The position numbers and the translations under genes are program-made. This document shows, piece by piece, positions 4,610 through 60,986 of a stretch of DNA of 64,000 nucleotides. Position 1 is the first letter of the stretch. Every line of letters starts with the position of its first letter. Below the pieces are notes generated by a model. It was given only the letters and a program-made list of their open reading frames with translations. It made no database searches and was not told where the DNA came from. This DNA comes from Russula earlei (taxonomy: Eukaryota > Basidiomycota > Agaricomycetes > Russulales > Russulaceae): positions 109,974 through 173,973 of the forward strand of contig JAGFNK010000058.1 in NCBI GenBank assembly GCA_025769875.1, in the 5' to 3' direction.

Positions 4610-4991
4610 GACGGGTTGTAAACAGCAGTGGAGAGGGAGTTGAAGATAAAGAGCAATTCTTTATCATACCTGTGGCCTATACTGCAGTGAACAATTTGGG
4701 CCTATGGAGCCCTGACTCTGTGAACAAAATAGAGTTGGGAAACGAGTATCAGAGTTAGAATCCCGACTCGATTCGAAATCTAATCGAATCCGAATCGGGC
4801 CACGTGCTGTGAAATAAAGAAGGCTGCTAACCCTGCACCCTACTTTGTCAACACATCTCGGCGTGTTCACCCCAGATTTTCAAGGCTGCCCGACAAGACA
4901 GTACGACTGGCCTGGGTATCTAATCTGCCAAATATCATGATCAGCATCACCGCTCCCGTCAAACTTGAACCCCAGGCTGGCAGTTGACAGC

Positions 4992-14563: not shown

Positions 14564-15398
14564 ATGCCTATCCTTCACGAATTTAACACTGAGACTGTCC
14601 ATGCCCCAACCGACCCAAAGCCTGATACTCAGGAGACGTTATACTTCCCTCATCCTTTCGTCGCCCGTCCCCGTCTTCCCCATGGCTTACGTGAACTAGA
14701 TATCGACAAAAATGCCAACATCCGCGTCAAGTCGACAAATCCAGTACTTCACCAAGACTTGGGCTGACTGTCATATCACAACGTGGGACGACACCACTCT
14801 CTACAGAGCCATCGACGATGTCTTCGTTCTCCCACCCGCCGATATGCAGTATCTCACTGGTGAACACATGCGCAACCTCTTGATCAACCCCGATGACCCC
14901 GCCTCCGTGCGCGTCGACTTTGAGCGCCCATTCATTACCCCTCCCAAAGTTGTTGTCTTCTTGAACTACATCGATCTCGACAACACCCGCAACTGGCGCC
15001 TCAAGACTACCGCCACTGACATCGACGTGACCGGATTCACGCTCACTATCGAGAGTTGGGGAGATACCATCCTCTACGCTGCGCAGGCTTGTTGGGTTGC
15101 ATACCCAGAGGATGAGGAGCACATCTTTAGCATGTCTGCCAACACGATGGACGTTCGTCCCCGCGACCAACCGCGGCTCCGACAGAGCAAGTTAATCTCA
15201 TTCAACGACGTCAAGTTTTGGAAGTATCCAGCCGTCTTCGTAGCCTTGAATTCTATCGACATCGATTGCAAAGCTAATCTTCGCATCAACGCCTACGTCA
15301 ACGACGTCTCAAGGACTGGTTTGGTCTGGCATATTGATACCTGGGCTGACACCATTCTTTATTCCGCTGGAGCTAGTATCATTGCATTCAACGAATGA
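14564..15398 (+). pseudogene. H-type lectin domain protein (lectin 2, one-base frameshift)
   Basis: Paralogue of lectin 1 over its full length. ATG 14564 opens MPILHEFNTETVHAPTDPKP and reads to RELDIDKNANIRVKST. There an extra A (about 14,737-14,740, in TCGACAAATCC) shifts the frame. From IQYFTKTWADCHITTWDDTT the rest is open to the stop at 15398 with no other defect: FERPFITPPKVVVFLNYIDL, FTLTIESWGDTILYAAQACW and GLVWHIDTWADTILYSAGAS. The three-module H-type lectin layout (PF09458) is complete apart from that base. Either a very young pseudogene or an indel error in the assembly; the good TATA box and clean remainder make both plausible. No signal peptide. Confidence 0.8.
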
Positions 15399-20795: not shown

Positions 20796-21247
20796 ATGAA
20801 CCCGAGTCTCGATTCCCAGCAAATAGTGGCATCCCTTACAGGTAGAAGTGTCTTCCAAGGAGTCCATATGTATGACCCTCTAATCCAATCGCAGGTATCG
20901 CCCCATTCCTCTGGCCATTCATTCTCCTCTCGCTGGGCGTGGCCCTGACGACCATATCACCTCTATTATGGAACTATTCCACCTGGCTGCTTTTTATCGT
21001 ACCCCTTGTCATCACTGTCTTTCGCGCCCATTCGCACATTCTCTGGACCAATACGATACGCATATTTGGAATATGCTTCAAAAATTGCCGCGTTTCTTGT
21101 GTCCCTCCTTGGAGTCCTCGCGATCACCTTCAAGTCTCTCCCAACACTTGCTTTACCTGCATTCTTCATTCTCCCGATGCTACCCATATTATTTTTTGTT
21201 TGTTCCCTGCTCTTCCTGTGATCTGGCACTACATCTCCTACCACTAT

Positions 21248-22640
21248 CGCCGTCGTTTGAAAGCGGTCACTACCTCCGTATCCAGGACTACCGCTGGGCT
21301 GAATCTCGTTATCGCTCGGGCCCAACAGGCCGTCGCCCTCGCGCACACACACGAGAAGCAGGTACTATACACCGTTTCCGCAACCCGAAGTGCCGCCTCC
21401 CTTACATTCCCCCGACTTAGCACCGACTTTATCGACTCATCTGTATCTGCAGGGGAGGGGCAGCAGTTGGTACGCAGGAAAGCCGAATTGGTGCGCACCT
21501 TGGGGGCCGGTCTGGCGGAGAAGGTGATTGCATCGGAGACCAAGATGACCAGTCTCGAGGATCAGGCGGCGAAGCTTCGCATCTTGTTGGAGCAAGCGGT
21601 TGCAGTTGCGGTAGAAGGAGACATGGGTGCGGGCGAAGCTCTAGCCGCCGATGCTGCATCTTCTTTGGAAGGTATCGTTAAACAGGTGGAAGAGTTGTGT
21701 TCTGCAGCAGAAGAAACAAGGCGCACTTGGGTAGAATACCGCCGTCGTCTGAACGCACTCACCACCTCCGTATCCGGGACTACCGCTGGGCTGGATCGCT
21801 TTATCGCTCGCGCCCAACAGGCCGTCGCCCTCGCGCACACACATGAGAAGCAAGCACTATATACCGTTTCCGCAACCCGAAATGCCGCCTCCCTTACATT
21901 CCCCCGACTTAGCACCGACTTTATCGACTCATCTGTATCTGCAGTGGAGGGGCAGCAGTCGGTACGCAGGAAAGCCGAATTGGTGCGTACCTTGGGGGCC
22001 GGTCTGGCGGAGAAGGTGATTGCATCGGAGACCAAGATGGCCAGTCTCGAGGGTCAGGCGGCGAAGCTTCGCATCTTGTTGGAGCAAGCGGTTGCAGTTG
22101 CGGTAGAAGGGGACATGGGTGCGGGCGAAGCGCTTGCGGCCGATGCTGCAACTTCCTTGGAGGGTATCATCAAACAGGTGGATGAGCTGTGTTCTGCGGC
22201 AGAAGAAGCAAGGCGCACTTGGGTCGAATACCGCCGTCGTCTGCACGCACTCACCACTTTCGTATCCAGGACTACCACTGGGCTGGATTTTATTACTGCT
22301 CGCGCCCATCAGGCCGTCACCCTCGCACACACACATGAGGAACAAGCACTATACACCGTTTCCGCAACCCGAAGTGCCGCCTCCCTCACGTTCCCCCGAC
22401 TCAGCACCGACTTTATCTCATCTGTATCTGCAGGGGAGGGGGAGCAGTTGGTACGCAGGAAAGCCGAATTGGTGCGTACCTTGGGGGCCGGTCTGGCGGA
22501 GAAGGTGATTGCATCGGAGATCAAGATGACCAGTCTCGAGGATCAGGCGGCGAAGCTTCGCATCTTGTTGGAGCAAGCGGTTGCAGTTGCGGTAGAAGGG
22601 GACATGGGTGCGGGCGAAGCTCTAGCGGCCGATGCTGCAA
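21248..22640 (+). repeat. Tandem 492-bp coding repeats 1 to 3 (first part)
   Basis: Repeat starts, taken at the CGC codon of Y-RRRL-ALTTSVS, fall at 21,248, 21,740 and 22,232: exactly 492 bp (164 codons) apart. Repeat 3 is interrupted after GATGCTGCAA at 22,640 by the Plavaka element. Repeats differ by a few percent by eye. Confidence 0.92.
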
Positions 22641-22671
22641 CATCAGGAAAAACCTCCCGCGCTGGCGAGAG

Positions 22672-23156
22672 ATAATTAGCACTTATTATCCCTCGCTAGC
22701 GTCATTTATCAAAAACTGAAATTATCGTCGCCAGTTTACCCCCAATAATTTTATCGACCATTATCGTCATTATGGATAATAATTTTGCTATTATGATAAT
22801 TCATGGTTCTTGTTCTATAATTTTGGATTGGATAGTTCACGACATGATTGATAATAAGCGCTGATAATAGCGCAATAACTTCGCAGTCCATTCAGCTACG
22901 CTATGACAGGAATACTAATGTAGGCATTTTACAATGCCAAACTAAAATCAAGTTGTACGAGAACGATAATTTGTCCGAGAGAACAATATGAGCGGGTATA
23001 ATGTCACCGTTGGTTTGAGGGACCAAGGACGGTGTGAGCTTGCTCAATTGTTGAGTTCTTCAAGGTTGAGTCCAGCAATTGGGACCGAGGTTCTCAATGC
23101 TGAAGTGCTGCCGCAAAGGTAGATTAGTTAAACAAAGTATAGCATGATTTGATTGC
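22672..23156. other. Left subterminal region of the Plavaka element
   Basis: AT-rich, with many copies of TTATC/GATAA and related motifs, probably transposase-binding sites. No gene is seen. Confidence 0.45.
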
Positions 23157-24977
23157 TCACTGGGCTTTTGTAAAAATATCCGCCATCATCGTGTGGAACG
23201 CATTGCCACGATGCTCCTGGATATGGTTGAATGTGCCAATATGGCCACGATAGACATCAAGGTATGCATTGGCTGAAAAGTCCGTGGCCTGGTGGACACC
23301 GGTACGCCACTCATGCAGGGCAGCATAGAGCTACATATATAGTTAGAACAAATTTTGAAGACAAGACTAAACTAGACTTACCGCCGTTGCTACCAATGCG
23401 ACCATTGGTATTGGCACTTCACGCGTCGTCACCCCAAGGGTGTCTTGATGTGTCGGAAAGCAGTGTCCAAATTTACTCACAAACGAGTTAACACCTCCGG
23501 CAAAATACAAATCGTGAATCACATTGATTATCCGCGTATTCCGATAGGGACGCGAGCGCATTATGAGACCAAAGTTCGACGAAACCTAACCACACATTAG
23601 ATGGTATCAAATAAGAATAAGTCCACTTACACTTTTGCTGGTTGGAAACGTATAGTTGTAATCTGTTAACTGCTTCTCAACAAAGGCAATGATTGATGCC
23701 TTTGATGGGATGGCCGACAACTCAGCCGAGATGATGGTAGTGTAGCGTTCTTTGGCTTCACGTCGGAAAAGGGGGACGCGACCACGCGGCTGTTGATTCC
23801 GTCAGTAACGCCATCTCTCTGGTTGAGGAACTTACCACAGGGATAATTTTAGTCACGTATTTGTGATCGGACTGGAGGCGCCGATGGATGAATGAGGAAC
23901 CGGGACGGGAAGAAGCAGCTGATAAAAGAGCAGCCTTTATCACTGCGAGAACAGTAGGGGCATCAGGGAATGCGTGATCAATGAGCAAACTGGCTTGAAC
24001 ACTATCCACTGCGTCTTGAAGGACGAGGCGAATTAGTGGGCGTTGCTTAGACAGTGTTACCTTGTTTGAATCTGGAGTAAGTATGAGATCGGTGTCAGCG
24101 GGCCAGCGAAATTCAGAAGCCAAAGCAGTAGCGCTGCTTTGACAATCTTGAGAAGATGGAACGTCGTCAGTTGTCCAAGTTTGGCTGCCAGGCAGTGCAC
24201 CATCTAAGGCAGAAGGCCCAGGAGGAGCAACTGAAGCTGACCATGATGGTCTCTACATGAACAGCTTTGAGTTTTAGAAGAGATAAAATGATGTCGCAGA
24301 CGTACCTCGATTACCATCGCCTCAGAACATTTCATGGATGGTTGCTGGGCGGACTCCAGGTCCTCAAGCCAGTCAGTCTCTGACTCTGGGTTGCTATTGT
24401 CACCAGTGGTTTCAGTTTCGACAGGTTCGGTTACAAGACGACGGGCATGTGCACCACCACTATCACCATAGAAAGCGGACACTGGGGAGAAAAAAAAAAA
24501 CGAAAAACGAACCATCAGTGGTTTGTTTGTTTGGTGACAAACCTTATTTGTCAGCATATGCACGCACTTCGCTCCAACCTCCTTGGCATGGGCATGGCAA
24601 TGCCCCCTGCAATCATCATTCCCTCCTTGATATCCAAGACCTTTGTGTCCAAGTCAACACATGCAACATCTATGATACCATGTGACACACTGGACTTCTG
24701 CGGCACACTGGACTTTCGTGCCTTCTTCGCAAGTGGGGTATAGGTTGGCTGCACAGCCAAATTGGCAGAGCTGGGGTGATCAGCGTCATCGGAGGATAAG
24801 GTGCGTTTATTCCCTACTTTTGATATTAGATATGCTGACATGAATAAAATTTGAAGTACCTTTTAGATACGTTTCATGATCAATGTTGCTCTGTATCATA
24901 GCATCTTCGTTCCTAGATGCCATGTTCCCCTTGTTAGAAGATTGTCTGGCCACATTGCGACAAGTGCGAGGAGCCAT
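23157..24977 (-). CDS. DUF6532-like accessory protein of the Plavaka element
   Basis: Second gene of the transposon, divergent from the transposase. ATG 24977 opens MAPRTCRNVARQSSNKGNMA; further exons contain a charged, nuclear-type stretch (KRTLSSDDADHPSS, LAKKARKSSVPQKSS) and SGGAHARRLVTEPVETETTG. The C-terminal half has RLVLQDAVDSVQASLLIDHA then FPDAP, IKAALLSAASSRPGSSFIHR and RLQSDHKYVTKIIPV, followed by PIPMVALVATAVSLVLYAAL and HEWRTG, ending FTKAQ at 23157. The order (LL-HAFP; AL--AA; RL--D--Y; P-MVAL----LY-AL-EW--G) matches my recollection of the fungal DUF6532 family (PF20149). About seven exons; one exon junction near 24,600 is uncertain. Its role in transposition (DNA binding, like plant TnpA) is only inferred from linkage. 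Confidence 0.6.
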
Positions 24978-25147
24978 GGATGAAGCAAGATGAAAATAAG
25001 AGAGTGGAGGTAAGAATGCTGGAAACGACAGGAAGGGTGATGGGGGTTCGACGACCAAGGTGAGTTTCATTTTATGTTAAAAGCACATGGCATATTCTGA
25101 CAGTGACTTCCCATTCCTCCTCTTCTCGACTAGTTGAGCATTCTGTC
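24978..25147. promoter_or_regulatory. Shared promoter region between the two transposon genes
   Basis: The 170 bp between divergent start codons 24,977 (minus) and 25,148 (plus) must hold both promoters if the start choices are right. No clear TATA box was found. Confidence 0.4.
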
Positions 25148-28100
25148 ATGAAAGCCACACAGATTCACTGTCCAGGCTGCAAGCGCAACTTTACCCATCG
25201 CGGCTACTCTCAACACGTTGCAAAGACTAGGAGTGTGCGCTGCCATATAGTGCATAACACCACACCAGCCCATTTGGAGTCTCAGTCCATTCATCGCTCG
25301 GCATCATCACTAGCATCATTCCCAACTCCCACACCCCATATCGTTTCCAATATCGCCTCTTGTGGTGAACGTGACCCTGCTGCGGATGACGGGCCTTTGG
25401 CCAATTACCCCATTTTGGGAGTCGTGCAATCAGGACGGTGAGTATCCACTACAACGCTTATGGCTAACGCTGACCATTGACATCGTAGACTATGATGATG
25501 ATCAAATCCACAATATGTGCTTACCCTGGGCAGGAAACTGCCATCGAACCGCCATTACCTGCAGATCCGGGGTATCCTGATCACCCACCTGCGTGGACTG
25601 AGGTGGGCGAATCAGAGGCCGTGCTAATGGACCGATTTCCATTTGGTCACCCTGGCGCTCCGATTTCTGGACCATATGACATCCATGCAGCAAATGGGTC
25701 TAGTGGCGCAGCACCCAGAGACACCATATGGGCTCCATTCTCCTCCGAAATTGACTGGGAAATCGCACGTTGGGCAAAGATGCGTGGCCCAACATCATCA
25801 GCGGTCACAGATCTACTTGCGATCCCTGAGGTACGTGTACCCCTATGTTCACACATTATAGCACTGAGGGATAGAGAAAGGTCGTCGAGAAGCTTGAGCT
25901 TTCCTACAAAACGACAAGGGAATTGAACAATATCATCGACAAGAAATTGCCTGGGCAACCGCCATTCAATTGCAAGGAACTGGTCATCGGGCATGAACAT
26001 CTTCGCTTCTTTTTCCGTGACACCTTACAATGTATCCGGGCTCTCTATGGCGACCCCAATTTCATGAAGGACCTTGTGTTTGCGCCCGCGCGACTTTATA
26101 CCTCCCCTGAGCGAACATCCCGCATCCTCAATGAGATGCATACTGGTGATTGGTGGTGGACAGTCCAGGTGCGTAACACCAACTTTCAGTTTTTATTATA
26201 CACTTACGATGGAGCCAGATGTCCCTCGAATCCCATCGCCCGGGTGCAACTATCATTCCCGTCATCATCTCGTCTGACAAAACACAACTTACTGTCTTCC
26301 GCGGGAAGACGGCATACCCCATATATCTCACAATTGGAAATATCCCGAAAGACATTCGTCGAAAGCCGTCGCGCCACGCACAAGTACTAATCGGTTATAT
26401 TCCAACAACAAACCTAGAAGGCATGACAAACAAGGCAGCTCGACGCCGCGCCTTGGCAAATATATTCCATACATGTATGGAAACTGTTTTGGCCCCGATC
26501 AGTTCCTGTGGAGAAACGGGTATTGCTATGATGACTGCGGACGGAATATGGCGTCGCTGCCATCCGATATTCGCAGTATTCATCGGTGATTACCCTGAAC
26601 AGTCTCTCGTCACCTGTACATACAGTGGTCGCTGCCCCAAGTGTCTGGTTCCTCGTGATCGACTAGGTGTCTTTGAAGAGTTCCCGCCCCGTCTCTCTAG
26701 TGACATGAAGCACCTCTATCGCCTAGCAGATGGGGACGTAGGCGTGTTCCACAGAGCCTGTCGAGAAGCTGGCCTCAAGCCCGTTTTTCACCCTTTCTGG
26801 GAATCTCTCCCATTCGCTGACGTCTTCCTGTCGATCACCCCTGATATCCTTCATCAACTACTTCAGGGTGTTATGAAGCATCTTATCGCGTGGCTAACGA
26901 GCCCAACTGTCTTTGGATCAGCACCAATCAACCGACGCTGCCGCCTGTTACCCCCAAATCACAGCATTATGCTCTTTACCAAAGACATAACATCGCTGTC
27001 TTATGTTTCAGGACAGGAACACAAAGATATCTGTCGTGTTCTCCTTGGGGTCGTTTTCGATATCCCTCTTCTCAGTGGCCATGCATCAATGTGCGTCATC
27101 AAAGTAGTGCGCGCACTGCTTGACTTTTTGTACTTGGCACAGTACCCAAGCCATACGAGTGGTACTCTTACCCGCCTTCAGGACGTGCTCAAACACTTCC
27201 ACGAGAATAAGGCAGTCTTTGTCGACCTCGGTACACGGGACGACTTTAACATCCCAAAAATCCACAGTCTCCTTCACTATTGGTCCTCGATCATGTATTT
27301 TGGCACAACTGACAACTATAATACAGAACAAACCGAGCGTCTTCACATAGATTTCGCAAAGGATGCATACCGTGCCACAAACCACAAGGATGAGTACTCA
27401 CAGATGACCACATGGTTGGAGCGTCGCGAGAAAGTCCAACAGCACATGGCATCCATTAAGCGGCAGCAGCAGGGTGAGCAGTGTGACGCTGACATCAGGA
27501 CATCAATTGGTCCCTTGCAGACATGTCTCGGCATTCTCAAGATGGCACATAACCCCACAATGAAGTCGGTATCATTCGATGATCTTGCTGAGATGTATGG
27601 CGCGATCGACTTTCAAGATGCCCTGGCTGATTTCATTGCTCGGGTTAACAACCCTGATGCCTCAATGGCAACATTGCGCACACGGGCAGCAAACACACTA
27701 ATCCCATTCCGTGGTGTCCCAGTCTTTCATCGGATCAAGTTCGTGGCTAGCGATAATCACACTGACCAAATGGAGTCAATTGACTCGGTGCATGTGGAGC
27801 CACAACAATCTGATTCACATGGGCGTATCCTACCAGCAAGATTTGATACTGTTCTTGTTCGTGATGGCACACATAGTAAGCAATTTTTATGAATGTATAA
27901 CCTAAGCTGACTGTTACCCAAGAGGATCAAGTTGCGCAAGTACGCGTAGTTTTCCAGATACCAAGTAAAGCTATCCGCGACATCTTCCCATCCCCGGACA
28001 TCACACCTCCAACTCACCTCGCGTACGTTGAATGGTTCTCACAGCTTCCAGTCACGCCAGATCATGTCCATCGTATGTATAGGGTATCTAGATTGATTCA

Positions 28101-28281
28101 AAATGGGTGGCGATCTGCAGGCGTTATCCCGGTGAACACTATCGTATGTAGTGTCCACTTGTTCCCGCGATTTGGTCCAGACGCTCCTCCGTCTTTGACT
28201 CCCTTTACCATTCTGGAGCATTGCCACACATTCTATATCAATCCTTTTGCTAATAGGCTTAGCTACCTGCAATTTGCATAG
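25148..28281 (+). CDS. Plavaka transposase
   Basis: Catalyses cut-and-paste transposition (RNase H-fold superfamily). ATG 25148 opens MKATQIHCPGCKRNFTHRGY with SQHVAKTRSVRCH, an N-terminal zinc finger. After an intron: PFSSEIDWEIARWAKMRGP then SSAVTDLLAIPE; intron; VVEKLELSYKTTRELNNIID, GDPNFMKDLVFAPARLYTSP and MHTGDWWWTVQ; intron; then a 557-codon frame with RPGATIIPVIISSDKTQLTV, KTAYPIYLTIGNIPKDIRRK, CPKCLVPRDRLG, the D-H pair in SITPDILHQLLQGVMKHLIA, and FNIPKIHSLLHYWSSIMYFG with TDNYNTEQTERLHIDFAKDA. A final intron (about 27,875-27,920) joins the tail VRVVFQIPSKAIRDIFP and AGVIPVNTIVCSVHLFPRFG, ending LQFA at 28281. All blocks follow the order of Agaricomycete Plavaka proteins and no disabling change was noticed, so it may be active. 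Confidence 0.85.
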
Positions 28282-28622
28282 TAATGACAGTTATTGCGAG
28301 ACTATTGAAAGTTATTTATGTATTGCTAGTTCCAACACAGTATTATTGCACGTTAGTGCGCACTATTGCACTTAGCGTTGGTTACTCACTACTGATAGTT
28401 CAATTTTGTTACCAAAGAAGTACATCCGCCTGACCCCCCAGATTGATCGGGCATTACTCGCCAGACTTCTGACAGTTATTGATGTTATTGACACTTATCT
28501 GCCCCAACCCCCAATTGATCGGCTGTCTACTGACACTTATTTGGCACTTATTACTCCTTATCGCGCATTATCTTTGACTTACTTCGCATTACTCTCGCTA
28601 GCGCGGGAGGTTTTTCCTGATG

Positions 28623-29890
28623 AACTTCCTTGGAAGGTATCGTTAAACAGGTGGACGAGTTGTGTTCTGCAGCAGAAGAAACAAGGCGCACTTGGGTAGA
28701 ATACCGCCGTCGTCTGCACGCACTCACCACCTCCGTATCCAGGACTACCGCTAAGCTGGATCTTATTATTGCTCGCGCCCAACAGGCCGTCACCCTCGCA
28801 CACACACATGAGGAACAAGCACTATACACCGTTTCCGCAACCCGAAGTGCCGCCTCCCTTACATTCCCCCGACTCAGCACCGACTTTATCGACTCATCTG
28901 TATCTGCAGGGGAGGGGCAGCAGTTGGCACGCAGGAAAGCCGAATTGGTGCGCACCTTGGGGGCTGGTCTGGCGGAGAAGGTGATTGCATCGGAGACCAA
29001 GATGGCTAGTCTCGAGGGTCAGGCGGCGAAGCTTCGCACCTTGGTGGAACGAGCAGTTGAAGTTGCGGTAGAAGGGAACATGGATGCGGGGGAAGCGCTG
29101 GCGATCGATGCTGCAGCTTCTTTGGAAGGTATCGTTAAACAGGTGGAAGAGTTGTGTTCGGCAGCGGAAGAAACAAGGCGCACCTGGATAGAATACCGCC
29201 GTCGTCTGCACGCACTCACCACCTCCGTATCCAGGACTACCCCTGGGCTAGATCTTATCATTGCTCGTGCCCAACAGGCCGTCACCCTCGCACACACACA
29301 TGAGAAGCAAGCACTATACACCGTTTCCGCACCCCGAAGTGCCGCCTCCGAGTCCCTTACATTCCCCCGACTCAGCACCGACTTCATCGACTCATCTGTA
29401 TCTGCAGGGGAGGGGCAGCAGTTGGCACGCAGGAAAGCTGAATTGGTGCGTACCTCGGGTGCTGGTCTGGCGGAGAAGGTGATCGCATCGGAGACCAAGA
29501 TGACCAGTCTCGAGGATCAGGCGGCGAAGCTTCGCACCTTGGTGGAGCGAGCAGTTGCAGTTGCGGTAGAAGGGAACATGGATGCGGGCGAAGCGCTGGC
29601 GACCGATGCTGCAACTTCCTTGGAAGGTATCGTTAAACAGGTGGAAGAGTTGTGTTCTGCAGCAGAAGAAACAAGGCGCACTTGGGTAGAATACCGCCGT
29701 CGTCTGCACGCACTCACCACCTCCGTATCCAGGACTACCGCTGAGCTGGATCTTATTATTGCTCGCGCCCAACAGGCCGTCACCCTCGCACACACACATG
29801 AGAATCAAGCACCGTACACCGTTTCCGCAACCCGAAGTGCCGCCTCCCTTACATTCCCCCGACTCAGCACCGACTTCATCGACTCATCTG
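28623..29890 (+). repeat. Tandem coding repeats 3 (end), 4, 5 and 6 (start)
   Basis: Continues repeat 3 at AACTTCCTTGGAAGG. Unit starts are at 28,705, 29,197 and 29,695. Spacing is 492 bp for repeat 4 and 498 bp for repeat 5, which has two extra codons in SAASESLTFP. Interrupted in repeat 6 after GACTCATCTG by the copia LTR at 29,891. Confidence 0.92.
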
Positions 29891-30275
29891 TGTTGCGCAG
29901 CATAGAGCGCAGCTAACAGGCCAAGCAACCCACCTTAGAGGTTGTGCTAATGCTCAAGTGATATTGGGGTGTAGAGCGATATGTATACTTGTCTACAAGT
30001 ATGGTATTCATACCTCTATGACCCAGGGCTGTTCCTAAGTCCAAAAGAGGTGACTACAGGTGTCCACTATATCGTGCATTAAGTGACATGTGATGTGGAA
30101 ACGTTCTAGACGCAGCATAAGGCTGCATCTTGTGATAGATAGCGTAGTATGTGTAACCCTATTGCCATAAGTGCATATACTAAAGTTCTGTCTAACACGT
30201 AACATCTATGAGCGGATCTTGAACCTTGTATGAAGGTCTTCGCCTTCTTTGATCCATTCGGGTTCCGGTTCAACA
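29891..30275 (-). repeat. 3' LTR of copia copy 1
   Basis: 385 bp, TGTTGCGCAG...GGTTCAACA on the plus strand. The polypurine tract of the coding strand (GCAAGGGGGAG) directly abuts it at 30,276-30,286. Confidence 0.9.
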
Positions 30276-33200
30276 CTCCCCCTTGCTAAGTGCATCGGTA
30301 GATGCCGTGAGCATTTTTCCACATTCAGGGGTAGAACATTAGTCCTAGTTGCTCCCTGAATTTGAGGAACTTGATGTGACCAAGGTTCTTGGTGAACATG
30401 TCAGCTGGGTTATTAGCCCCTTCAATAAAGAATAGCTCCACCTGTTTGTTTTGTATGACTTCATGAATGAAGTGATAGCGCAAATCAATGTGTTTGATGC
30501 GCTTTTCTTGCACAGGGTTGGAGGCTAAGAATATTGAGCCCTGGTTATCACCGAATGGTGGGATGGGAGCAAGATTAATGCCAAGTTCTGTTAGTAAGGA
30601 TTTAATCCAAACTAACTGTCTGCTCGTGTCAGAGAGCGACATGTACTCAGCTTCAGTGGAAGAGAGCGTGACTGTTTTCTGCGCTCGTGAGTTCCATGAA
30701 AATATTGCTCCAGCCAAGTTCACCATATAGCCTGTAGTGGACTTCCGATTAGTCGGATCAGAAGCCCAGTCAGAGTCTGCATATGCCATTAGGCCGCCAT
30801 TAGATGGTCCATCATAGACCAAGGCATAATTGGCAGTTCCCAAGAGGTATCGGCAAATATAGAATGCACGATTTAGATGGTCCACTGAGGGATTGGCAGC
30901 ATGTTGCGACAACTTAGTGACCGCAAAGGCTATGTCTGGATGCGTTCCAAGCATTATGTACAGGAGTGATCCTATAACTTGCTGGAATTTTGACCGCAAG
31001 GCTGGGTCAGCAGCGGAACTGTTGGGAGAGGGGTGATAGCCCTCTGGTAGCGGAGTAGGAGCAGGGTTTGCGTTTAGCAAGTTGAAACGCTGCAGCACTT
31101 TTCTTAGATACTCAGTCTGGTCCAGATGTATTTGGCCAGACTTGCGTATGATGCGCATGCGTAGAAATTCTTGGGCATCGCCCAGATCTCAACATTCCCA
31201 GAGCTTCATAAAGCGCTCCTTTGTTTTATTGATTTGTTTTTTGTCTGCTCCAAAGAAGAGCACATCATCAACATAGACGATGGCTATGATGCTCTTGTCT
31301 TTACTAACAAAGAGCCCAGAGTCAGACATAAGGCAAATAAGGCCGAGCGAGGCCATGGACTTGTCAAGGGCTTTCCACCATGCAAGTGCCGCTTGCTCAA
31401 GTCCATATATTGTGCGTTTAAGGCGCATGACTTTACGCTCTTGGCCTTTTATTTTGAAGCCCTCGGGCTGCTCCATATAGAGCTCTTCATTGAGCTCACC
31501 ATAGAGAAAGGCAGTCTTGACGTCTAGTCCACTAATGTGCCAGTTTTTGAGCGCTGCGAGTGCAATCATCAGGTGGACTGTCTCAAACCGTACCACGGGT
31601 GAGAATATTTCGTCATAGTCAATGCCTTCTACTTGGGAGAAGCCTTTGGCGACTAGTCTGGCTTTTTTACGACCATCAGACTTAAGGTCGAATACCCATC
31701 TGTTTTAATTATTTTGCGATCCTTCGGAGGATCGACTAGTTCGAAGACTTTGCGTCTGCGGAGGGATTCCAACTCCTCGCGACAAGCATCTTTCCACTCC
31801 TTTTGGAGTTCATTTGGCATTCGCAGAAGGTCCCTAAAGGTCCATTCGCCAATCTTCACAGTATTGGGTGCTTCCGAACTTAGTGGAACTGCTTGGGCGA
31901 GCAGATAGCTCAGAAATTTGACTCCCCCTTCCCTTGCTAGATGTAGAATGTCTTCTACCTCATCCTCAGAGGCTTGCGGTGGTTGATCGTCAAGGATGAC
32001 AGGAGGGTATGGGCCTGGTATGGCCAATCCTGACATACTATCCTCACCGGAGCGACTGGGTTGGTTTTCTGTCATTGTTCTCCATGTGTGTGTGTGCCGA
32101 ACATCTTTTTCCACTTCTGTGGGGTGTCTGCGTTCACCATAGACGTTGCCTGGATGGGTAGGTACTTTCCTCAACCGCTGAGACCTTCAAAGAGGTACAA
32201 GTTCTTCAACAGGAGGAGGGGATGGTGTAGGAGGGACAGGCATTTGCTCGCGTTCCTCTTCTTCTGGCACCTGTATAGGCTGCTCATCGTCCTCACTTTT
32301 GATAGTAGGGAATGGGTCGTCAACACCAGGAATGGTGTCTTCGACAGGTTGTTGTGGTAGTTCCTCACGCGGTTCATTAATCCGTGTGGTACCTTTAGTG
32401 CGCGCTTTGTCGCATTGGGGTTCAGGGTCTCATCGTACAGGGCGGTAGCATTTGTGTAAAGCATATTATTAGGGAGCCTCATGAAGAGTGAGGCTTTGAT
32501 CGCCTCAGTATGACCAAGGTAGATCATTAGTTCGCTTTTAGGCGAAAGCTTATTGACTCGACGCTTTTCTGGTATGTGCACATATGCACCGCAACCAAAT
32601 ACTCTGAGGTGTGAGATATCAGGGACCTCGTTCTTTAGGACTTCGTAGGGTGTACGCCATTGAAGGCGTCTGGCAGGTGTCCTATTGTAACAGTGTGTCC
32701 CATGATTCACTGCAAATTCCCACCAGGAGGGAGGTAGACAAGCTTCATGGCGCATCGCCTGAGCTTTGTCCATTACAGTGTGCATAAAGCGCTCTGCGCG
32801 TCCATTCTGTTGTGGAGTGTATGGGGCACTTTGCAGGATTTTAATTCCTTCATCCTTTAGGATGTTGTCAAAGGCCTCAGACTTGCACTCTCCGCCAGCA
32901 TCGGACATCCACTCTCTAATCCTTGCTTTATATTGGTTCTTGACCATAGCAAGGAATTGTTTGACGGCCATTATGGTCGACTTTTTATTTTTTAGGAGTG
33001 TGATCCATGCATAGGAGGAATAATCGTCAATGAAGCTGATGAAATATTCGTACTTATGATATGACTTCACAGGGAAACTCTTAATGTCCGAGTGAATACG
33101 CTCGAACAGTGTGGAAGCACGAGTTTCAGAAGGGGGGTGTGCAGATGCAGGCATCTTGCCTTGCGCACAGCCAGGACATACCGGCTGTTCCTGAGGGATT

Positions 33201-34574
33201 TCCAGGTCTTCAGGGAGACCCTTGGTATGTGTCTTTGCATGTGTTACGACATCCTTAGATGGGTGGCCAAGGCGTCAGTGAATGACATCATAATCTACCA
33301 CATAGATAAGAGAATGCGCTTGTGTGCTTTCAATTGAGGCGTCTAACCAATACGTGGTTTGACCCGGGAATAAGGGGTAAGAGGACAGGATTATACGTCC
33401 GTCCTCTCGTAGGGAAATATGTCTATTATTCCCTAGTGCATGCATCCCTTGTTGTAAAAACTCCCCCATAGATAATATCCGAGTGTTAATCTTCAGAATA
33501 TAGAGAACAGGAGAAATGTGCGTGACAACCATTTTAGAGTTGACAGTGTGCCAAAGCAACACAGCGCCTTTGCCTTCCACATATATTGTGTTATCGGCAG
33601 TTTTAACAGGGGATCTTTCATGCGGCAAAGCCGGCGTATACTCTATAAAGTCTTTTATTTCGAAGGTGAAGTGCGCGGACGCGCCAGAGTCAAGGAGCCA
33701 TAAGGATCCCATTTTACTCAAGTTGTGCTTTCCTCTACATCTCGAACAATTTTTGTTACATTCACTTTGAAGGGAAGTAGTCCCTTCGCTAATTTGTACA
33801 TTGTATGATACAAGCGAACACATTTTAGACATATCTAGCCTGCTTTGGGGCTGGGGAGATGCTAATAGGTTCTTTAGCGAGTGAAAAGAGAGAGGGAGGC
33901 GCACGCATGCTTCATTATCTTTGGGGTCACTGCCCCAATCAAGCGCTTCATCCGACGGAGTCGGAGCACGCTCAGGGGTGACAGCACCTTCTGGGATACT
34001 GTTGTATATGTTGAATAAATCTGATGTATTAGTTTGCGCGAAGTCGCCATTGTCCTGGTCCATAGGCTCAGGGACGGGCGACGGAAGTTTGACTGCACTT
34101 GTTGAGGCAGCAGATTGAGTCGAGATCCGCTGCTTGAGGGTCTTAGCTGTCTGTATAGTGGGGGTTACCCCAAGATCGTCAGCAAGATCAAGCGCTTTGT
34201 TTAAGGCCTTGTAGGGGCCGTGAGTGCATTTGCGAGGGTCAGTCGCAGTTGGGACGGTACATTGTTGGATCCCCGAAGGACCCAGATGGGTGATAGTGGT
34301 ATTGGTTGGGAGTGGGAGTGCAGCAACGTCCACAATATGAGAATGTCCGGGACCATGGCTTTGATCGGCTTTCTCCTTGCCTTTCCCTTTTCCTTTGCCA
34401 CCATGCTTACCGTGCTGGCACTTATCCTTATCTTCATCACGCTTGGGCTTATTGCCCTGCTGCTGATTGGAGAAGGAGGGGTCACCGTGCTTGCACTTGA
34501 CAGCTGAGAGCTTCTGAATGCTGTGCTTTTTGTTTGTACCACAATTTACCTCAGTTTGGTATTGAGAGACAATA

Positions 34575-37383
34575 CATCAGGAAAAAACAAAAATGCTATC
34601 TAGCGCTATATAGCTACCATAGCGTCTGTAGCAACTTTACAACCATTGAGGTTTCATGCCTACATAGCAACCACCAAACTCTCTATAGCCGCCACCAGGG
34701 TTATATAGAGCACCATTGACTACATTTCTTCTACCAATGCTACATAAATCATACAATGTTATATCAACAACATAAATATACATTTCTTCCCATCATCAAC
34801 CATACCTATGTAGCCAACCACATGCTTATGTTCTACCGATTGCAACATTGTTATGATAAACAACTCAGGCACTTAAATTCACACAAATGTCAGGAAACAA
34901 TATATATTTCACATATCAACACTAACTAATATTTTTCAACTACGGTCGGATACTTGCCTCTGTGGCGCTGTTCTGGCTCTCGCACGCAGCGCTTCTTAGG
35001 ACTGCGCCTGTAGCCGTTGTTGTCATTTGCATATGCGTTCTAAGCGGTGTCTTGTCGTCGCTCCATATGTCCATTTCTCCCCCCGAGCACTTGATGAAAG
35101 GCCAGAGAGTATGAGAGAGTGCACAAAAACGAAAAGGAATAATGCACCTGTTCACTGTTCATCGGCCTGTGCCCAGGAGCGAGGGCCACCTTCTCTTGTT
35201 TCTTGGACTTGGACAGTGGTGTCGGTGGCTTTGTCGTGGTAAGAGGAGGCATCAAGGACGATGCAGAAGATGGCACCAGGGTACAGGTGAGTTGAGACAT
35301 GAACGTGTGTTCAATGTTTTGAAGCCGTGCGAAGCCTGTGCAAAGGAAAGCAGAGGGGAGTGACAAAAAATGAAAAGCGAAAAAAAGGGGGGGAAAGGGT
35401 AATGCACAGAATGCGTAAGACACTCATTGAAGACGCTGAGCATGGTTGTACTTGTCACCTCGACAGTGAGATTGCGCAAGTAAAAGGAAACCTGAAATGC
35501 ACATTGGTGAGACCTAGGGAGAGGGTCGCACTTTCGTTTTCTGTGATGCGCCCATCCCCTGAAATACCATTTCCTGTGTGCAGGAGCTCGCTTTCGGTTC
35601 AAGCGTACTTTACCTTCAAGCAACACATGTTTTCCCCCACACGCGATTTTAGTTAAGTTGTTTGTGTGCATTTTTTTTTCTTTCACTTAAATACAAGTCC
35701 TCTCATATGTCGTTGTCATCCCCATCATCACCACTGCAGTGACACAGAAGAAGGGAGTGAGAAGGCAGCTTGAAGGCCAACAAGAGGCTGTTTAGTAGGA
35801 AGGAGAGGGGAGATGATGAGAGAGTGTGTGAAAATGAAACAAAAAACGCACCCACGGAAACAACATGGCACGGGAAAACTCGAAAACTCAAATGACTTGG
35901 GTAATAGCTGGTGAAAACTTGATGAAACTGGCAGCTTGGGAGTCTTGAACTGGGACCATGGGGAAGGAAGAGTGGGCAGGAGAGGGGAAAGAGGGGAAGA
36001 ATGATGGCAAAAGAAAATGAATGCGATTAGTAAAAACGAAGAGGCTGTCGTCAAAAAAGGTTTGAAGTCAACAAGTTGCACATGTTGGCCTTTTTTACCT
36101 TGTGCCTTGCCATCACATATGTCAACATCCCATTGCATACTCACATAGACCAAGCAAGTAGCATTTTTCACGCGTGACCACTCTCACTTGCATGTTCCCC
36201 ATGTGCTCTCTCCCCTCTCCTCTCCTTTGCACTGTAAGGTGAGTTGTGGGCTTAGACGTGGATCACGGCGGACTGGCCAATGCTGACCAAGCGTCACCCA
36301 CACCCACCGTGAGAGACAAGTCAACAAGTCAACAGCTGAACGCCCGACATGCATGCCCCACAACTCCCTCTCTCCACCACGTCACACATGCAAGCACACC
36401 ACGCCCTCTGCCTCTCGCCTCTGATGCACACACTCGCTCCTCCACCTCCAACATCACTACCACCCACGCGCACCTGTACGCATACCCCCACGTGCACACA
36501 CACTTGCCTGCACGCCCGCCACTGCCTCATCAGGCAGAAGTCCCCAATGCTCGAGACCTGGCTGACCACACCTTCACAGCATTTCGGCCACGCCGACTAG
36601 TGCCCACTTGTTGCTACAGCCCCCTTTACTATACCCTTCCAAAGCCTAGCTTCGTTACACCTGTTGCCTCAATGCCACGATCACACACGTCCATACCCAT
36701 TTATCTCAGAATACATTTACCTCTCTTTAGCTACCCTCATTCTAGGATACCATTTAGTCTAGTTCCAGTCCCAATGTACATAAAAACCAGCCTTCGTCTC
36801 TAGGATGAAGGCAAGAAAGGAAGGAAATAGAAAGAAAGCAAGCAAGCAAGAAACCCTTTTACCCCCACTTCGACCAACTCGCACACGTGGCCGCCTCCCA
36901 TCAGGAGAGGAGAGGTGAGAAAGAAAAACGGTGTCATCAGGGGAGAAGGAGAGGGGAAGGATGGGAATGGGGAGAGTGGGTTGGGGAGGAGAGGAGAGGA
37001 CAATATGCAGTGTAGCATGGCCACCATAAGTAAGGCTCAATAGTGCAATATAATTATAATAACCAATAGTCTCCATAGAGCAATGTAATGAACAATTGTC
37101 TCCATAGTGCAATGTAATAAACTGATTGTCTCCATAGTGCAATGTAGTAAACTGATCATCTCCATAGACAACCATAATTTCAGTCATCCTACATAGTGAT
37201 ATGTAGACTTGGTTTCATCTACTGTGCCTACATAAATATAGTCATAAACTACTGGAACTACATTGAGCAATATAGACTTACTATGATGCTATAGAGCACT
37301 ACATAGTATGTTGTTGTGCTATGGTGTCTATGGTGTCTACAGAATTAAGCAGTGTCTATGGACCAGACTGGTTTTTCCTGATG
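34575..37383. mobile_element. Non-autonomous element with Plavaka-type termini inside copia gag
   Basis: Starts CATCAGGAAAAA and ends TTTTTCCTGATG, flanked by TA (34,573-34,574 and 37,384-37,385). Copia copy 2 has the uninterrupted site AATAGCC, proving a 2-bp duplication. Only about 12 bp of the end match the Plavaka element; the subterminal sequence is different (CTATATAG/ACATAG-rich). The interior contains only low-complexity open frames (for example 36,246-36,803, Thr/His/Pro-rich), with no transposase. Probably mobilised by a related Plavaka transposase in trans. Confidence 0.82.
37065..37165. repeat. Subterminal tandem repeats of the non-autonomous element
   Basis: Four imperfect copies of a roughly 29-bp unit TCTCCATAG(T/A)GCAATGTA followed by an A-rich half. 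Position near the element end suggests transposase-binding sites. Confidence 0.7.
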
Positions 37384-38139
37384 TAGCCTCTCGGACGTCC
37401 TTCGGACTAAGATCGGGTAGATCATAGTTCTGAGTGACAATGTGGACAAGCATTTCCAATTTCGGGGGAATGGCTGCAAGCATGATGAGCACCTGTAAGG
37501 CGTCAGGAATGATAAGGGAGGATGTGGTGAGACGCTGGAATGCAGCATGTATCCGATCCATTTGTGGGCCAGGATGCTGGCTCGGGTTAATGCGAATGGA
37601 AATGGCTTCTTTGAAGTCCTTATAGATGCTAGTGGTCGTCGCTGTGCCATAAAGGGTATCTAGGTGATTCCAGATAGTCTCAGCTTATCCAAAGATGTAA
37701 GATCTTGTTGGATCGTGATGCTCGATCTAAGGACCATATGACCGACTGCCATGTCATTTCCTTTGTTCCATTCTTTCAGGGCTACGACAGCGGCAGCCTG
37801 GGCAGCAATCTCTTCAGCAAGAGGCGCCTGAGGAAGTCCAGGAAGGACTGGCAATTCAAATGTACCATTGCAATAACCCCATAGTCCAATGGACATGAGG
37901 TAGGCTTTCATAGCCTTAGACCAAATACCATAATTTGCACCATCAAGGATGGGGACAACAGGGGCAGAGGGTTGAGACGATGACATTGTAGCTGTTATAA
38001 AAGGGCTTAGAGGTCGTCAGTAAGAGTATTGTATTCAAACAAGCCGACATAGTCTCCCCATAGGGCAGACTAGCTCGCCACAGCATGCAGGCTTCAGGGA
38101 TGCTTCGCCATTGTTGCAGCCGATGAAGGTGCATGGCTT

Positions 38140-38154
38140 GCAGGGCCCATAACC
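38140..38154 (-). promoter_or_regulatory. Primer-binding site, initiator tRNA-Met anticodon arm (copia copy 1)
   Basis: Plus-strand GCAGGGCCCATAACC lies directly inside the 5' LTR. It resembles the anticodon stem-loop of eukaryotic initiator tRNA-Met (GCAGGGCTCATAACC as I recall it; one mismatch). This is the half-tRNA priming known from Drosophila copia and yeast Ty5, not the usual tRNA 3' end. Confidence 0.65.
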
Positions 38155-38539
38155 TGTTGTGCAGCATAGAGCGCAGCTAACAGGCCAAGCAACCCAACTT
38201 AGAGGTTGTGCTAATGCTCAAGTGATATTGGGGTGTAGAGCGATATGTATACTTGTCTACAAGTATGGTATTTATACCTCTATGACCCAGGGCTGTTCCT
38301 AAGTCCAAAAGAGGTGACTACAGGTGTCCACTATATCGCACATTAAGTGATGCGTGATGTGGAAACGTTCTAGATGCAGCATAAGGCTGCATCTTGTGAT
38401 AGATAGCATAGTATGCGTAACCCTATTGCCATAAGTGCATATACTAAAGTTCTGTCTAACACGTAACATCTATGAGCGGATCTTGAACCTTGTATGAAGG
38501 TCTTTGCCTTCTTTGATCCGTTTGGGTTCCAGTTCAACA
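38155..38539 (-). repeat. 5' LTR of copia copy 1
   Basis: 385 bp, same length as its partner, here TGTTGTGCAG...AGTTCAACA. Transcription of the element is expected to start here on the minus strand. Confidence 0.9.
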
Positions 38540-39590
38540 ATCTGTATCTGCAGGGGGAGGGCAGCAGTTGGTACGCAGGAAAACCGAATTGGTGCGTACC
38601 TTGGGTGCTGGTCTGGCGGAGAAGGTGATCGCATCGGAGACCAAGATGACCAGTCTCGAGGATCAGGCGGCGAAGCTTCGCACCTTGGTGGAACGAGCAG
38701 TTGCAGTTGCGGTGGAAGGGAACATGGATGCGGGCGAAGCGCTGGCGACCGATGCTGCAACTTCATTGGAAGGTATCGTTAAACAGGTGGAAGAGTTGTG
38801 TTCTGCGGCAGAAGAAACAAGGCGCACCTGGGTAGAATACCGCCGTCGTCTGCACGCACTCACCACCTCTACATCAAAGACCGCTGCCTCCTTGGATTTC
38901 ATCGTCGCTCGCGCCCGACGGGTTACCACCCTCGCGCACATATACGAGAAGGAAGTGCTATGCACCATTTCCACCACCCGGCGCACCGCCTCCTTTACGC
39001 TCGCGCTTCACAGCACAGACTTCTTCGATACGTCCACGTCTGCTTGGGCTGCGCTAGGTCATACTACAGCACGTACCGAGGATCTCGTCGCTGCGGCGCG
39101 TGAGGTCATCCCGTTGGCCAACCAGCTACGGCAGTCCGCGTCTCCTTCCGACGAGATCCAACCATCGACGCTGGCAGAGATACTGTTCGAGCGGGCAAAT
39201 GAGGTTGTCACAGCGGCATCGGAGACGGAGCGACTGGCGCGCATGGCTCAGGACAGCGTCGGGCGATCGACGAAAGCTATCAGCCAGGTGGACAAGGCAC
39301 GGGAGCAGGTACAGACGGAGGTCGATCGGGTGCGCACGTTGGGGGTCAAGCTGGTGGAAATCATGGTGAGTGTGGAGACGCAGATTTCCGCTGTAGAGCA
39401 CGAAGTGGAAAAGGTTCGTGCCTCGTTGGAGCAGGCGGTTTCAGTTGCCGCCGAGGGGGATATGAATCGTGCAGAAGGACTGGCGGCCAGCACTGCGGAA
39501 TCCTTGAAAAGTGTCGTTCAACAGGTGGAGAATTTGTCTTCCGCAGCAGATGCAGCGAGGCAAACCTGGGTAGAATTATCAGTAGAGTAG
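38540..39590 (+). repeat. Coding repeat 6 (end) and divergent repeat 7
   Basis: Resumes at ATCTGTATCTGCAGG, in frame with the part left of the copia element. Unit 7 starts at 38,841. It diverges (ALTTSTSKTAASLDFIVARA, LARMAQDSVGRSTKAISQVD) but returns to the consensus ASLEQAVSVAAEGDMNRAEG and QVENLSSAADAARQTWVE before the stop. Typical of an ancestral terminal unit next to a recently amplified array. Confidence 0.85.
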
Positions 39591-40429: not shown

Positions 40430-40492
40430 GTAGAGTGCAGCTAACAGGCTAAGCAACACCTTAGAGGTTGTGCTAAGTGCTCAAGTGATATT
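40430..40492. repeat. Truncated copia LTR remnant, target of Plavaka copy 2
   Basis: Matches the copia LTR from GAGCGCAGCTAACAGG to CAAGTGATATT (here GAGTGCAGC...). It ends exactly where CATCAGG of Plavaka copy 2 begins, so TT would be the target duplication. The other part of this LTR is not found. Confidence 0.75.
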
Positions 40493-40783
40493 CATCAGGA
40501 AAAACCTCCTGCGCTAGTGAGAGTAATGCAAAGTAAGTCAAAGACAATGTGCAATAAGGAGTAATAAGTGCCAAATAAGTGTCAGTAGACAGCCAATGTC
40601 AAGACTCACTATTGAACTATCCAGTTCAAGAGCGAGGAGTGAGCTCAGAGACAAGTCGGTAGACATCCAAGATGGTGTGGGCAAGGAGTAGAGTCCAAAG
40701 CAGTACCAAATACCAAAGAGGTATGGTTACTGGTAGAGTCGAGCAGGTATGCAGGGAAGAGGCCAGAATGGTCACAAGGGGAT

Positions 40784-54694: not shown

Positions 54695-55079
54695 TGTTGC
54701 GCAGCATAGAGCGCAGCTAACAGGCCAAGCAACCCACCTTAGAGGTTGTGCTAATGCTCAAGTGATATTGGGGTGTAGAGCGATATGTATACTCATCTAC
54801 AAGTATGGTATTTATACCTCTATGACCCAGGGCTGTTCCTAAGTCCAAAAAAGGTGACTACAGGTGTCCACTATATCGTGCATTCAGTGACATGTGATGT
54901 GGAAACGTTCTAGACACAGCATAAGGCTGCATCTTGTGATAGATAGCGTAGTATGCATAACCCTATTGCCATAAGTGCATATACTAAAGTTCTGTCTAAC
55001 ACGTAACATCTATGAGCGGATCTTGAACCTTGTATGAAGGTCTTCGCCTTCTTTGATCCATTCGGGTTCCGGTTCAACA
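54695..55079 (-). repeat. 3' LTR of copia copy 2
   Basis: TGTTGCGCAG...GGTTCAACA, 385 bp. The purine tract GCAAGGGGGAG of the coding strand abuts it at 55,080-55,090. Confidence 0.9.
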
Positions 55080-55128
55080 CTCCCCCTTGCTAAGTGCATT
55101 GGTAGATGCCGTGAGCATTTTCCCACAT

Positions 55129-56919
55129 TCAGGGGTAGAACGTTAGTCCTAGTTGCTCCCTGAATTTGAGGAACTTGATGCGACCAAGGTTCTTGGTGAA
55201 CATGTTGGCTGGGTTGTTAGCCTCTTCAATAAAGAATAGCTCCACCTGTTTATTTTGTATGACTTCATGAATGAAGTGATAGCGCAAATCAATGTGTTTG
55301 ATGCGCTTTTCTTGCACAGGGTTCGAGGCTAAGAATATTGAGCCTTGGTTATCACCAAACAGTGGGATGGGAGCAAGATTAATGCCAAGTTCTGTTAGTA
55401 AGGATTTAATCCAAACTAACTGTCTGCTCATGTCAGAGAGCGACATGTACTCAGCTTCAGTGGAGGAGAGCGCAACTGTTTTCTGTGCTCGTGAGTTCCA
55501 TGAAAATATTGCTCCAGCCAGGTTCACCATATAGCCTGTAGTGGACTTCCGATTAGTCGGATCAGAAGCCCAGTCAGAGTCAGCATATGCCATCAAGCCA
55601 CTATTGGATGGTCCATCATAGACCAAGGCATAATTGGCGGTTCCCAAGAGGTATCGACAAATATAGAATGCACAATTTAAATGGTCCTCTGAGGGATTGG
55701 CAGCATGTTGCGACAACTTAGTGACCGCAAAGGCTATGTCTGGATGCATTCCAAGCATTATGTATAGGAGTGATCCTATAACCTGTTGGAATTTTGACTG
55801 CAAGGCTGGGTCAGCAGCGGAAGTGTTGGGAGAGGGGTGATAGCCCTCTGGTAGCGGAGTAGGAGCAGGGTTTGTGTTAAGCAAGTTGAAACGCTGCAGC
55901 ACTTTCTGTAGATATTCAGTCTGGTCCAGATGGATCTGGCCGGACTTGCGTTGAATGCGCATGCATAGAAATTCTTGGGCATCGCCCAGATCTTGACATT
56001 CCCAGAGCTTCATGAAGCGCTCCTTGGTTTTATTGATTTGTTTTTTGTCTGCTCCAAAGAAGAGCACATCATCAACATAGACGATAGCTATGATGCTCTT
56101 GTCTTTACTAACAAAGAGCCCAGAGTCAGACATAAGGCAAATAAGGCCGAGCGAGGCCATGGACTTGTCAAGGGCTTTCCACCATGCAAGTGCCGCTTGC
56201 TTGAGTCCATATATTGCACATTTAAGGCACATGACTTTACGCTCTTGGCCTTTTATTTTGAAGCCCTCAGGCTGCTCCATATAGAGCTCTTCATTGAGCT
56301 CACCATAGAGAAAGGCAGTCTTGATGTCTAGTCTGCTAATGTGCCAGTTTTTGAGCGCTGAGAGCACAATCATCAGGTGGACTGTCTCAAACCGTACCAT
56401 GGGTGAGAATATTTCGTCATAGTCAATGCCTTCTACTTGGGAGAAGCCTTTGGCGACTAGTCTGGCTTTTTTATGACCATCAGACTTAAGGTCGAATACC
56501 CATCTATTTTTGATTATTTTGTGATCCTTGGGAGGATCGACTAGTTCGAAGACTTTGCGTCTGCGGAGGGATTCCAACTCCTTGCGACAAGCATCTTTCC
56601 ACTCCTTTTGGAGTTCACTTGGCATTCGCAGAATGTCCCTAAAGGTCCATTCGCGAATCTTCACAGTATCAGGTGCTTCTGAACTTAGTGGAACTGCTTG
56701 GGCGAGCAGATAGTTCAGAAATTTGACTCCCCCTTCCCTTGCAAGACATAGAATGTCTTCTACCTCATCCTCAGAGGCTTGCAGCGGTTGATCGTCAAGG
56801 ACGACAGGAGGGTAAGGGCCTGGTATGGCCGATCCTGACATACTATCCTCACCAGAGCTACCGGGTTGGTTTTCTGTCATTGTTCTCCATGTGCGTGTGC
56901 GCCAAACATCTTTTTCCAC
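55129..56919 (-). CDS. Copia copy 2 reverse transcriptase and RNase H (596 codons, open)
   Basis: Uninterrupted frame. The RVT_2 domain covers roughly residues 100-350, with NRWVFDLKSDGHKKARLVAK, LDIKTAFLYGELNEELYMEQ and the catalytic IAIVYVDDVLFFG. RNase H (roughly residues 430-580) has MAYADSDWASDPTNRKSTTG, ALSSTEAEYMSLSD and DNQGSIFLA. It ends FREQLGLTFYP. As a Ty1/copia polyprotein it should continue from integrase; a one-base insertion near 56,960 (PTLSWQRLW against PTHPGNVYG in copy 1) separates the frames, so the Met at 56,919 is not a native start. Confidence 0.9.
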   Translation of the reverse strand: MEKDVWRTRTWRTMTENQPGSSGEDSMSGSAIPGPYPPVVLDDQPLQASEDEVEDILCLAREGGVKFLNYLLAQAVPLSSEAPDTVKIREWTFRDILRMPSELQKEWKDACRKELESLRRRKVFELVDPPKDHKIIKNRWVFDLKSDGHKKARLVAKGFSQVEGIDYDEIFSPMVRFETVHLMIVLSALKNWHISRLDIKTAFLYGELNEELYMEQPEGFKIKGQERKVMCLKCAIYGLKQAALAWWKALDKSMASLGLICLMSDSGLFVSKDKSIIAIVYVDDVLFFGADKKQINKTKERFMKLWECQDLGDAQEFLCMRIQRKSGQIHLDQTEYLQKVLQRFNLLNTNPAPTPLPEGYHPSPNTSAADPALQSKFQQVIGSLLYIMLGMHPDIAFAVTKLSQHAANPSEDHLNCAFYICRYLLGTANYALVYDGPSNSGLMAYADSDWASDPTNRKSTTGYMVNLAGAIFSWNSRAQKTVALSSTEAEYMSLSDMSRQLVWIKSLLTELGINLAPIPLFGDNQGSIFLASNPVQEKRIKHIDLRYHFIHEVIQNKQVELFFIEEANNPANMFTKNLGRIKFLKFREQLGLTFYP

Positions 56920-56938
56920 TTCTGTGGGGTGTCTGCAT

Positions 56939-58536: not shown

Positions 58537-58537
58537 T

Positions 58538-59366: not shown

Positions 59367-59371
59367 GTGCT

Positions 59372-60818: not shown

Positions 60819-60971
60819 TGTAGCTGTTAGAAGAAGGCTTAGAGGTCGTCAGTAAGAGTATTGTATTCAAACAAGCCGACATAGTCTCCCCATAGGGTAG
60901 ACTAGCTCGCCGCAGCATGCAGGCTTCAGGGATGCTTCGCCATTGTTGCAGCCGATGAAGGCGCATGGCTT

Positions 60972-60986
60972 GCAGGGCCCATAACC
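60972..60986 (-). promoter_or_regulatory. Primer-binding site, initiator tRNA-Met anticodon arm (copia copy 2)
   Basis: GCAGGGCCCATAACC on the plus strand, identical to copy 1 and directly next to the LTR. Confidence 0.65.

Follow-up and report, generated by a model that had tools for sequence, protein, structure and literature searches.

The 64,000-nucleotide stretch of DNA analyzed here (the window) corresponds to C58:109974-173973 on contig JAGFNK010000058.1 (C58), within a 66.6-Mb assembly of 1,374 contigs from Russula earlei, an agaricomycete of the family Russulaceae. It holds one copy of a host gene in three coding pieces, broken by a PlavakaB DNA transposon and by a Copia long terminal repeat (LTR) retrotransposon. 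This copy is very probably one of three linked paralogs that was inactivated stepwise, by Copia and then by Plavaka.

Structure of the split gene

The gene opens with exon 1 (20796-20841, plus strand), in which the ATG start and the place of the following intron are the same in both paralogs by alignment. The intron itself (20842-20894, plus strand) spans 53 bp with GT..AG borders, in agreement with the splicing of the NCBI model F5148DRAFT_1282713 (P0004), which begins with MNPSLDSQQIVASLTG. The front coding piece (20895-22640, plus strand) carries a membrane module, units 1 and 2 and most of unit 3 of a repeat array. Beyond Plavaka, the middle piece (28625-29890, plus strand) supplies the remainder of unit 3, units 4 and 5 and the start of unit 6, and beyond Copia the rear piece (38545-39590, plus strand) completes unit 6 and adds unit 7 with a C-terminal module, up to a stop at 39588-39590. 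The Plavaka element is flanked by two copies of the target site duplication (TSD) AA (22639-22640 and 28623-28624), and Copia by two copies of ATCTG (29886-29890 and 38540-38544). Direct inspection of the sequence found the four breakpoints of the initial annotation exact to the base, and confirmed its exact element ends and both duplications. When the elements and the intron are removed and one TSD copy is kept per site, codons rejoin in frame at both sites, restoring the local frame as that annotation had proposed. The joined flanks comprise 4,104 nt, a multiple of three, and encode a 1,367-codon frame whose sole stop is terminal; internal stops, which had been named as evidence that would contradict a single gene, are absent. 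The product contains seven units starting with YRRRL, six of them 163-166 residues long and the last extending into the C-terminal module. The repetitive nature of the locus, in an assembly of many contigs with signs of one-base errors, might suggest an assembly chimera of repeats. However, the TSDs are exact and of family-typical length at both sites, the frame runs on across both joins and the locus lies on a single contig throughout, all of which makes a chimera extremely improbable. The open joined frame would likewise be compatible with pieces joined in RNA, the elements serving as introns. However, no TSD register yields both a GT start and an AG end, and the elements measure 6.0 and 8.6 kb against 53 bp for the native intron, such that this reading is almost inconceivable.

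Paralogs and uninterrupted sites

Two paralogs with no insertion lie at C58:25905-30513 on the minus strand, approximately 100 kb from the split gene. Paralog A (F5148DRAFT_716434, P0001) is a 699-aa open frame with three units and paralog B a 371-aa open frame with one, giving R. earlei copies of one, three and seven units; the order of modules in both is that of the split gene. Querying the assembly with P0001 returned at least 9 matches, all on C58 and inside the three genes, and the assembly searches, whose match counts are likewise lower bounds, revealed no further allele of the split gene. The split gene shares the modules of the P0001 family of Agaricomycetes, namely a membrane N-terminus, units of ~164 aa and the C-terminal module. 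Uninterrupted forms of the two insertion sites were sought with a pattern tolerating a few variants. The form of site 1 is present in 6/7 units of the joined array and 1/4 paralog units (A1), and that of site 2 in 6/7 and 2/4 (A1 and A2), respectively. As the joined units themselves (W3 at site 1, W6 at site 2) are included in these counts, the untouched controls within the array number five per site. The units missing the pattern are A2, a variant at site 1, along with W7, A3 and B1, each of them a divergent last unit. Judged from these counts, the two-site pattern is not chance, and the uninterrupted paralogs serve as built-in empty sites for the split gene. Among the eight complete units (six from the array, two from paralog A), the ratio of nonsynonymous to synonymous divergence (dN/dS) was 0.20-0.66 in 28/28 pairs, at a synonymous divergence (dS) of 0.09-0.26, and lengths differ by 3 and 6 nt only. 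Both the dN/dS range and the length differences in multiples of three indicate a coding history, and by these measures the split gene was constrained as coding sequence for most of its time as a separate copy. A relative-rate test of the C-terminal module revealed no significant relaxation of selection, with 51 changes unique to the split copy versus 35 unique to paralog A (p = 0.105), nor did codon positions 1 and 2 of that module (29 vs. 19, p = 0.19).

The host protein

Pfam and NCBIfam assigned no function to the host protein, and no Pfam family scored above its cut-off: the match to EzrA reached 21.6 of the required 39.6 (19.3 of 39.6 for paralog A) and that to PspA-IM30 25.4 of 33.9. A sequence search of the PDB gave no match at E <= 0.001, and a fold search with a weak query model gave 0/169 matches at that threshold; the best 50 of the 169, among them chemoreceptors, SMC, axonemal, pore and other proteins, all had E > 0.05. 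The model of paralog A (mean predicted local distance difference test, pLDDT, 70.6; predicted template modeling score, pTM, 0.40) and its sequence display N-terminal hydrophobic helices followed by long helices that repeat with each 164-residue unit. From model and sequence together we infer only that the protein could be a membrane-anchored scaffold or tether, its length set by the number of units. The Snowball protein family, a mushroom membrane protein family considered as a candidate, was rejected, as it has seven membrane helices and the available part of its description (PMC10949477) contains neither "coiled-coil" nor "tandem".

The Plavaka element

The element in unit 3 is 5,982 bp long (22641-28622, plus strand) and is delimited by terminal inverted repeats (TIRs) CATCAGG..CCTGATG of 31 nt at 97% identity, within the AA duplication; it also carries DUF6830. 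Its transposase domain, PF18759, spans two overlapping plus-strand frames, 25875-26390 and 26177-27892 (E = 3.6e-21 and 4.6e-86), with an intron or a frameshift between them. The available part of a 2025 report (PMC12730594) describes PlavakaB (CMCT clade) elements with ends 5'-CATCA..TGATG-3' and a TSD of 2 or 3 bp. The present element resembles them in its CATCA..TGATG ends, its 2-bp TSD and its PF18759 transposase, and it is on ends, TSD and transposase domain that the assignment to PlavakaB rests. Unlike those systems, the TET/JBP domain is absent from the 8 open reading frames scanned (of 32 listed, of at least 70 aa), and that part of the report does not name Russula. A genome search found 121 TIR-like ends with at most two mismatches, and from 100 of these matches 20 other copies were picked by their ends. 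The CATCA..TGATG ends thus recur in 20/20 copies by the manner of their selection, while an exact 2-bp TSD was present in 18/20 (7/7 full-length copies of ~5.98 kb, L041-L047, and 11/13 shorter ones), although fewer than 20 copies are independent because L049, L052 and L053 have common flanks. The PlavakaB family of the window therefore produces 2-bp TSDs. Three full-length copies (L041, L042 and L044) are 99.4-99.6% identical to that of the window, with most of the differences at CpG, and such near-identical copies suggest that the family was recently active; the four more distant full-length copies carry 19-50 non-CpG-type substitutions as well. In the one flank family compared there was no excision footprint, and its two clean empty sites may reflect either excision or sites never inserted. 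The 13 shorter copies (L048-L060, 2.46-2.58 kb) are internally deleted, with two sets of breakpoints at ~2107/5607 and ~2147/5559 of the full element, by which they form two non-autonomous subfamilies.

The Copia element

The Copia element in unit 6 (29891-38539, minus strand) lies within its ATCTG duplication and occupies 8,649 bp, part of which is a nested element. Its 385-bp LTRs (29891-30275 and 38155-38539) have ends TGTTG..CAACA, and its minus-strand coding region contains the integrase rve (32174-33274, E = 1.3e-10) upstream, by coordinates, of the reverse transcriptase RVT_2 (31192-31704, E = 9.2e-53). TG..CA LTRs, a 5-bp TSD and the order Pol_BBD, integrase, reverse transcriptase on one strand are as in Ty1/Copia elements; unlike these, the coding region is split over several separate open frames and a nested element is present. 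That element (34575-37383) is 2,809 bp long, with ends CATCAGG..CCTGATG and a TA duplication. Other Copia copies measure ~5.85 kb by LTR spacing, the copy in the split gene being longer because the nested element sits inside it. A first look at the genome gave 783 candidate LTRs, of which 40 were scored and all match, and a perfect 5-bp TSD was present in 10/11 Copia copies examined, including the one in the split gene. A second copy in the window (54695-61371) is without the nested element and holds an additional ~0.83 kb near 58538-59367 that the first does not have; its LTRs differ by 13 substitutions in 385 bp and no matching 5-bp TSD was found. Just 3' of the split gene lies a Copia LTR fragment (40430-40493), with another Plavaka end at 40493, for which a search of the window with CCTGATG found no matching far end.

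The front fragment and the out-of-frame patch

The public model P0004 (608 aa, 20796-22675) is the front fragment of the split gene. It is identical to the front coding piece over the first 599 residues and ends in AADAAT-SGKTSRAGER, with the ten terminal residues and the stop codon coded by Plavaka; the first of these ten coincides with a residue of the uninterrupted array. This public gene is accordingly a truncated fragment ending in transposon sequence. Within its membrane module, a patch of 59 codons (21020-21201, plus strand) is out of frame relative to both paralogs, because a short T run near 21,020 and another near 21,200 each differ from theirs in length by one base, in opposite directions. 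The middle of the module fits the P0001 family in the ancestral frame only, and the region affected is highly conserved: P60, R62, F64, S65, G66, P67 and Y72 are each at least 90% identical in a 25-member alignment that includes paralog A. Read as sequenced, the patch abolishes hydrophobic stretches found in paralog A at 19-mer starts 75-113. Substitutions unique to the split copy within the patch fall on ancestral codon positions 1, 2 and 3 in numbers of 5, 0 and 7, and the chance of 0/12 at position 2 under a uniform distribution is 0.0077, which argues that the frame shift is either young or not real. The window Plavaka has four private one-base extras relative to all seven other full-length copies, and L041 likewise carries three private ones, so that one-base indels are in excess where non-CpG substitutions are nearly absent. 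Such an excess is expected of sequencing or assembly error, and for this reason the patch is not claimed here as a lesion; that it is an assembly error is a serious possibility. Taken as sequenced, the open joined frame nevertheless departs from the ancestral protein within the patch. One-base differences in this assembly need read support before they are counted as lesions.

The front piece might nonetheless be a working, shortened protein consisting of the membrane part followed by units 1-3. It has a 608-aa frame with start, intron and stop that has been publicly annotated, assembly errors at the two T runs would mean that its membrane part is normal, and, if real, the one-base differences leave the array in frame, with a compensating change within an open stretch of ~131 codons being expected in ~5% of random cases. 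However, such a protein would be without the C-terminal module, which is retained in both paralogs and in the homologues, and its tail residues are transposon-coded. Moreover, the patch, if real, breaks nearly invariant residues and hydrophobic stretches of the membrane module, and its shifted reading would be young by the count at codon position 2. A working front piece is hence unlikely. A further possibility is that the front fragment, with its shifted patch that leaves the repeat array in frame and its transposon-coded tail, represents a new expressed protein derived from the broken gene, in which case the Plavaka insertion would have fixed a new C-terminus rather than being destructive only. 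The possible assembly error in the patch lowers the probability of this proposal, which is highly improbable.

Order of the insertions

The two LTRs of the split-gene Copia differ at 15/385 sites, 13 of them CpG transitions and 2 other changes, which is the maximum among 11 Copia LTR pairs; nine others differ by 0-6 substitutions, with the second copy of the window at the 13 given above. Plavaka differs from L041, the nearest of the seven full-length relatives fetched, by 19 substitutions in ~5,985 bp (17 CpG transitions, no other transitions and 2 transversions) and by seven one-base indels, and this divergence is an upper bound on the age of Plavaka at this site. Fisher tests of LTR against Plavaka substitutions gave p = 2.6e-10 for all sites and p = 0.017 for non-CpG sites. 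Copia is thus probably older than the Plavaka insertion, and because the LTR divergence exceeds that of Plavaka, the latter probably entered an already broken gene. CpG-biased C to T change in fungal transposable elements (TEs) is known from the available parts of PMC4352252 and PMC6980582, and since CpG accounts for most of the differences between the TEs in these comparisons, uncorrected LTR divergence gives too high an age. It could then be proposed that the two elements inserted at nearly the same time, the LTR divergence being merely CpG hypermutation, as 13/15 LTR differences are CpG transitions and near-identical Plavaka copies also differ mostly at CpG. However, Plavaka is under the same bias and yet shows only its 17 CpG transitions over the whole element, the non-CpG comparison also favors an older Copia, the nine other Copia LTR pairs total no more than six substitutions each, and Copia is old enough to have taken another insertion. 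Near-simultaneous entry is for these reasons quite unlikely. The CpG process is not seen to spread from the TEs into the host exons, which have no CpG excess (8/146 CpG positions changed vs. 59/841 others, p = 0.59; the 5' flank, with 2/20 CpG positions changed, was excluded from this count), and which therefore seem to escape it. At the non-CpG rate, a mean of 0.33 stops would be expected in the exons, with a probability of 0.72 of finding none.

Several observations weigh against stepwise loss with Copia first. The non-CpG ordering depends on two differences versus two, and the closest Plavaka relative was chosen from a small set, just seven full-length copies. Exons mutating as fast at CpG as the LTRs should have gained ~4 stops, with a probability of 0.014 of finding none. 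The initial annotation had described the locus as a recent double knock-out; one gene with two insertions is upheld, but not a single joint event, as Copia appears older and Plavaka much younger. Its suggestion that precise excision of Plavaka could revert one lesion has little functional bearing, since Copia would remain, as would the patch if real, and loss of Plavaka alone would not restore function.

A model of stepwise gene loss

Taken as a whole, the comparisons favor a model in which Copia integrated into unit 6 with a 5-bp TSD, whereupon full-length coding would have ceased. Copia may later have received an element with Plavaka-type ends, and more recently a full-length PlavakaB would have inserted into unit 3 with a 2-bp TSD, leaving a front fragment that stops in the transposon end. 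The coding pieces would be nearly undecayed because both insertions took place recently compared with the age of the paralogs, and the split gene itself would be without function today. The available part of PMC6980582 reports that in the ectomycorrhizal Tricholoma matsutake 702 genes are surrounded by TEs and mostly untranscribed. The present locus is similar in its TE insertions at a gene and its CpG-biased C to T change, whereas here two elements lie within one coding frame rather than around genes. Text searches of the literature found no treatment of the Russula earlei genome, and among publications on Plavaka, gene disruption, TEs of Russulaceae and CpG decay of TEs no title or abstract concerned this locus. 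Elsewhere in the window, two genes or gene fragments for H-type lectins (PF09458) occur at 3782-4660 (minus strand, E = 2.2e-49) and 14700-15395 (plus strand, E = 1.1e-43). Loss of the split gene may have been tolerable because two uninterrupted paralogs remain. Stepwise, TE-driven loss within a duplicated family is unexceptional, and the locus provides a clean, datable case of such loss by two transposon classes in a duplicated repeat gene.

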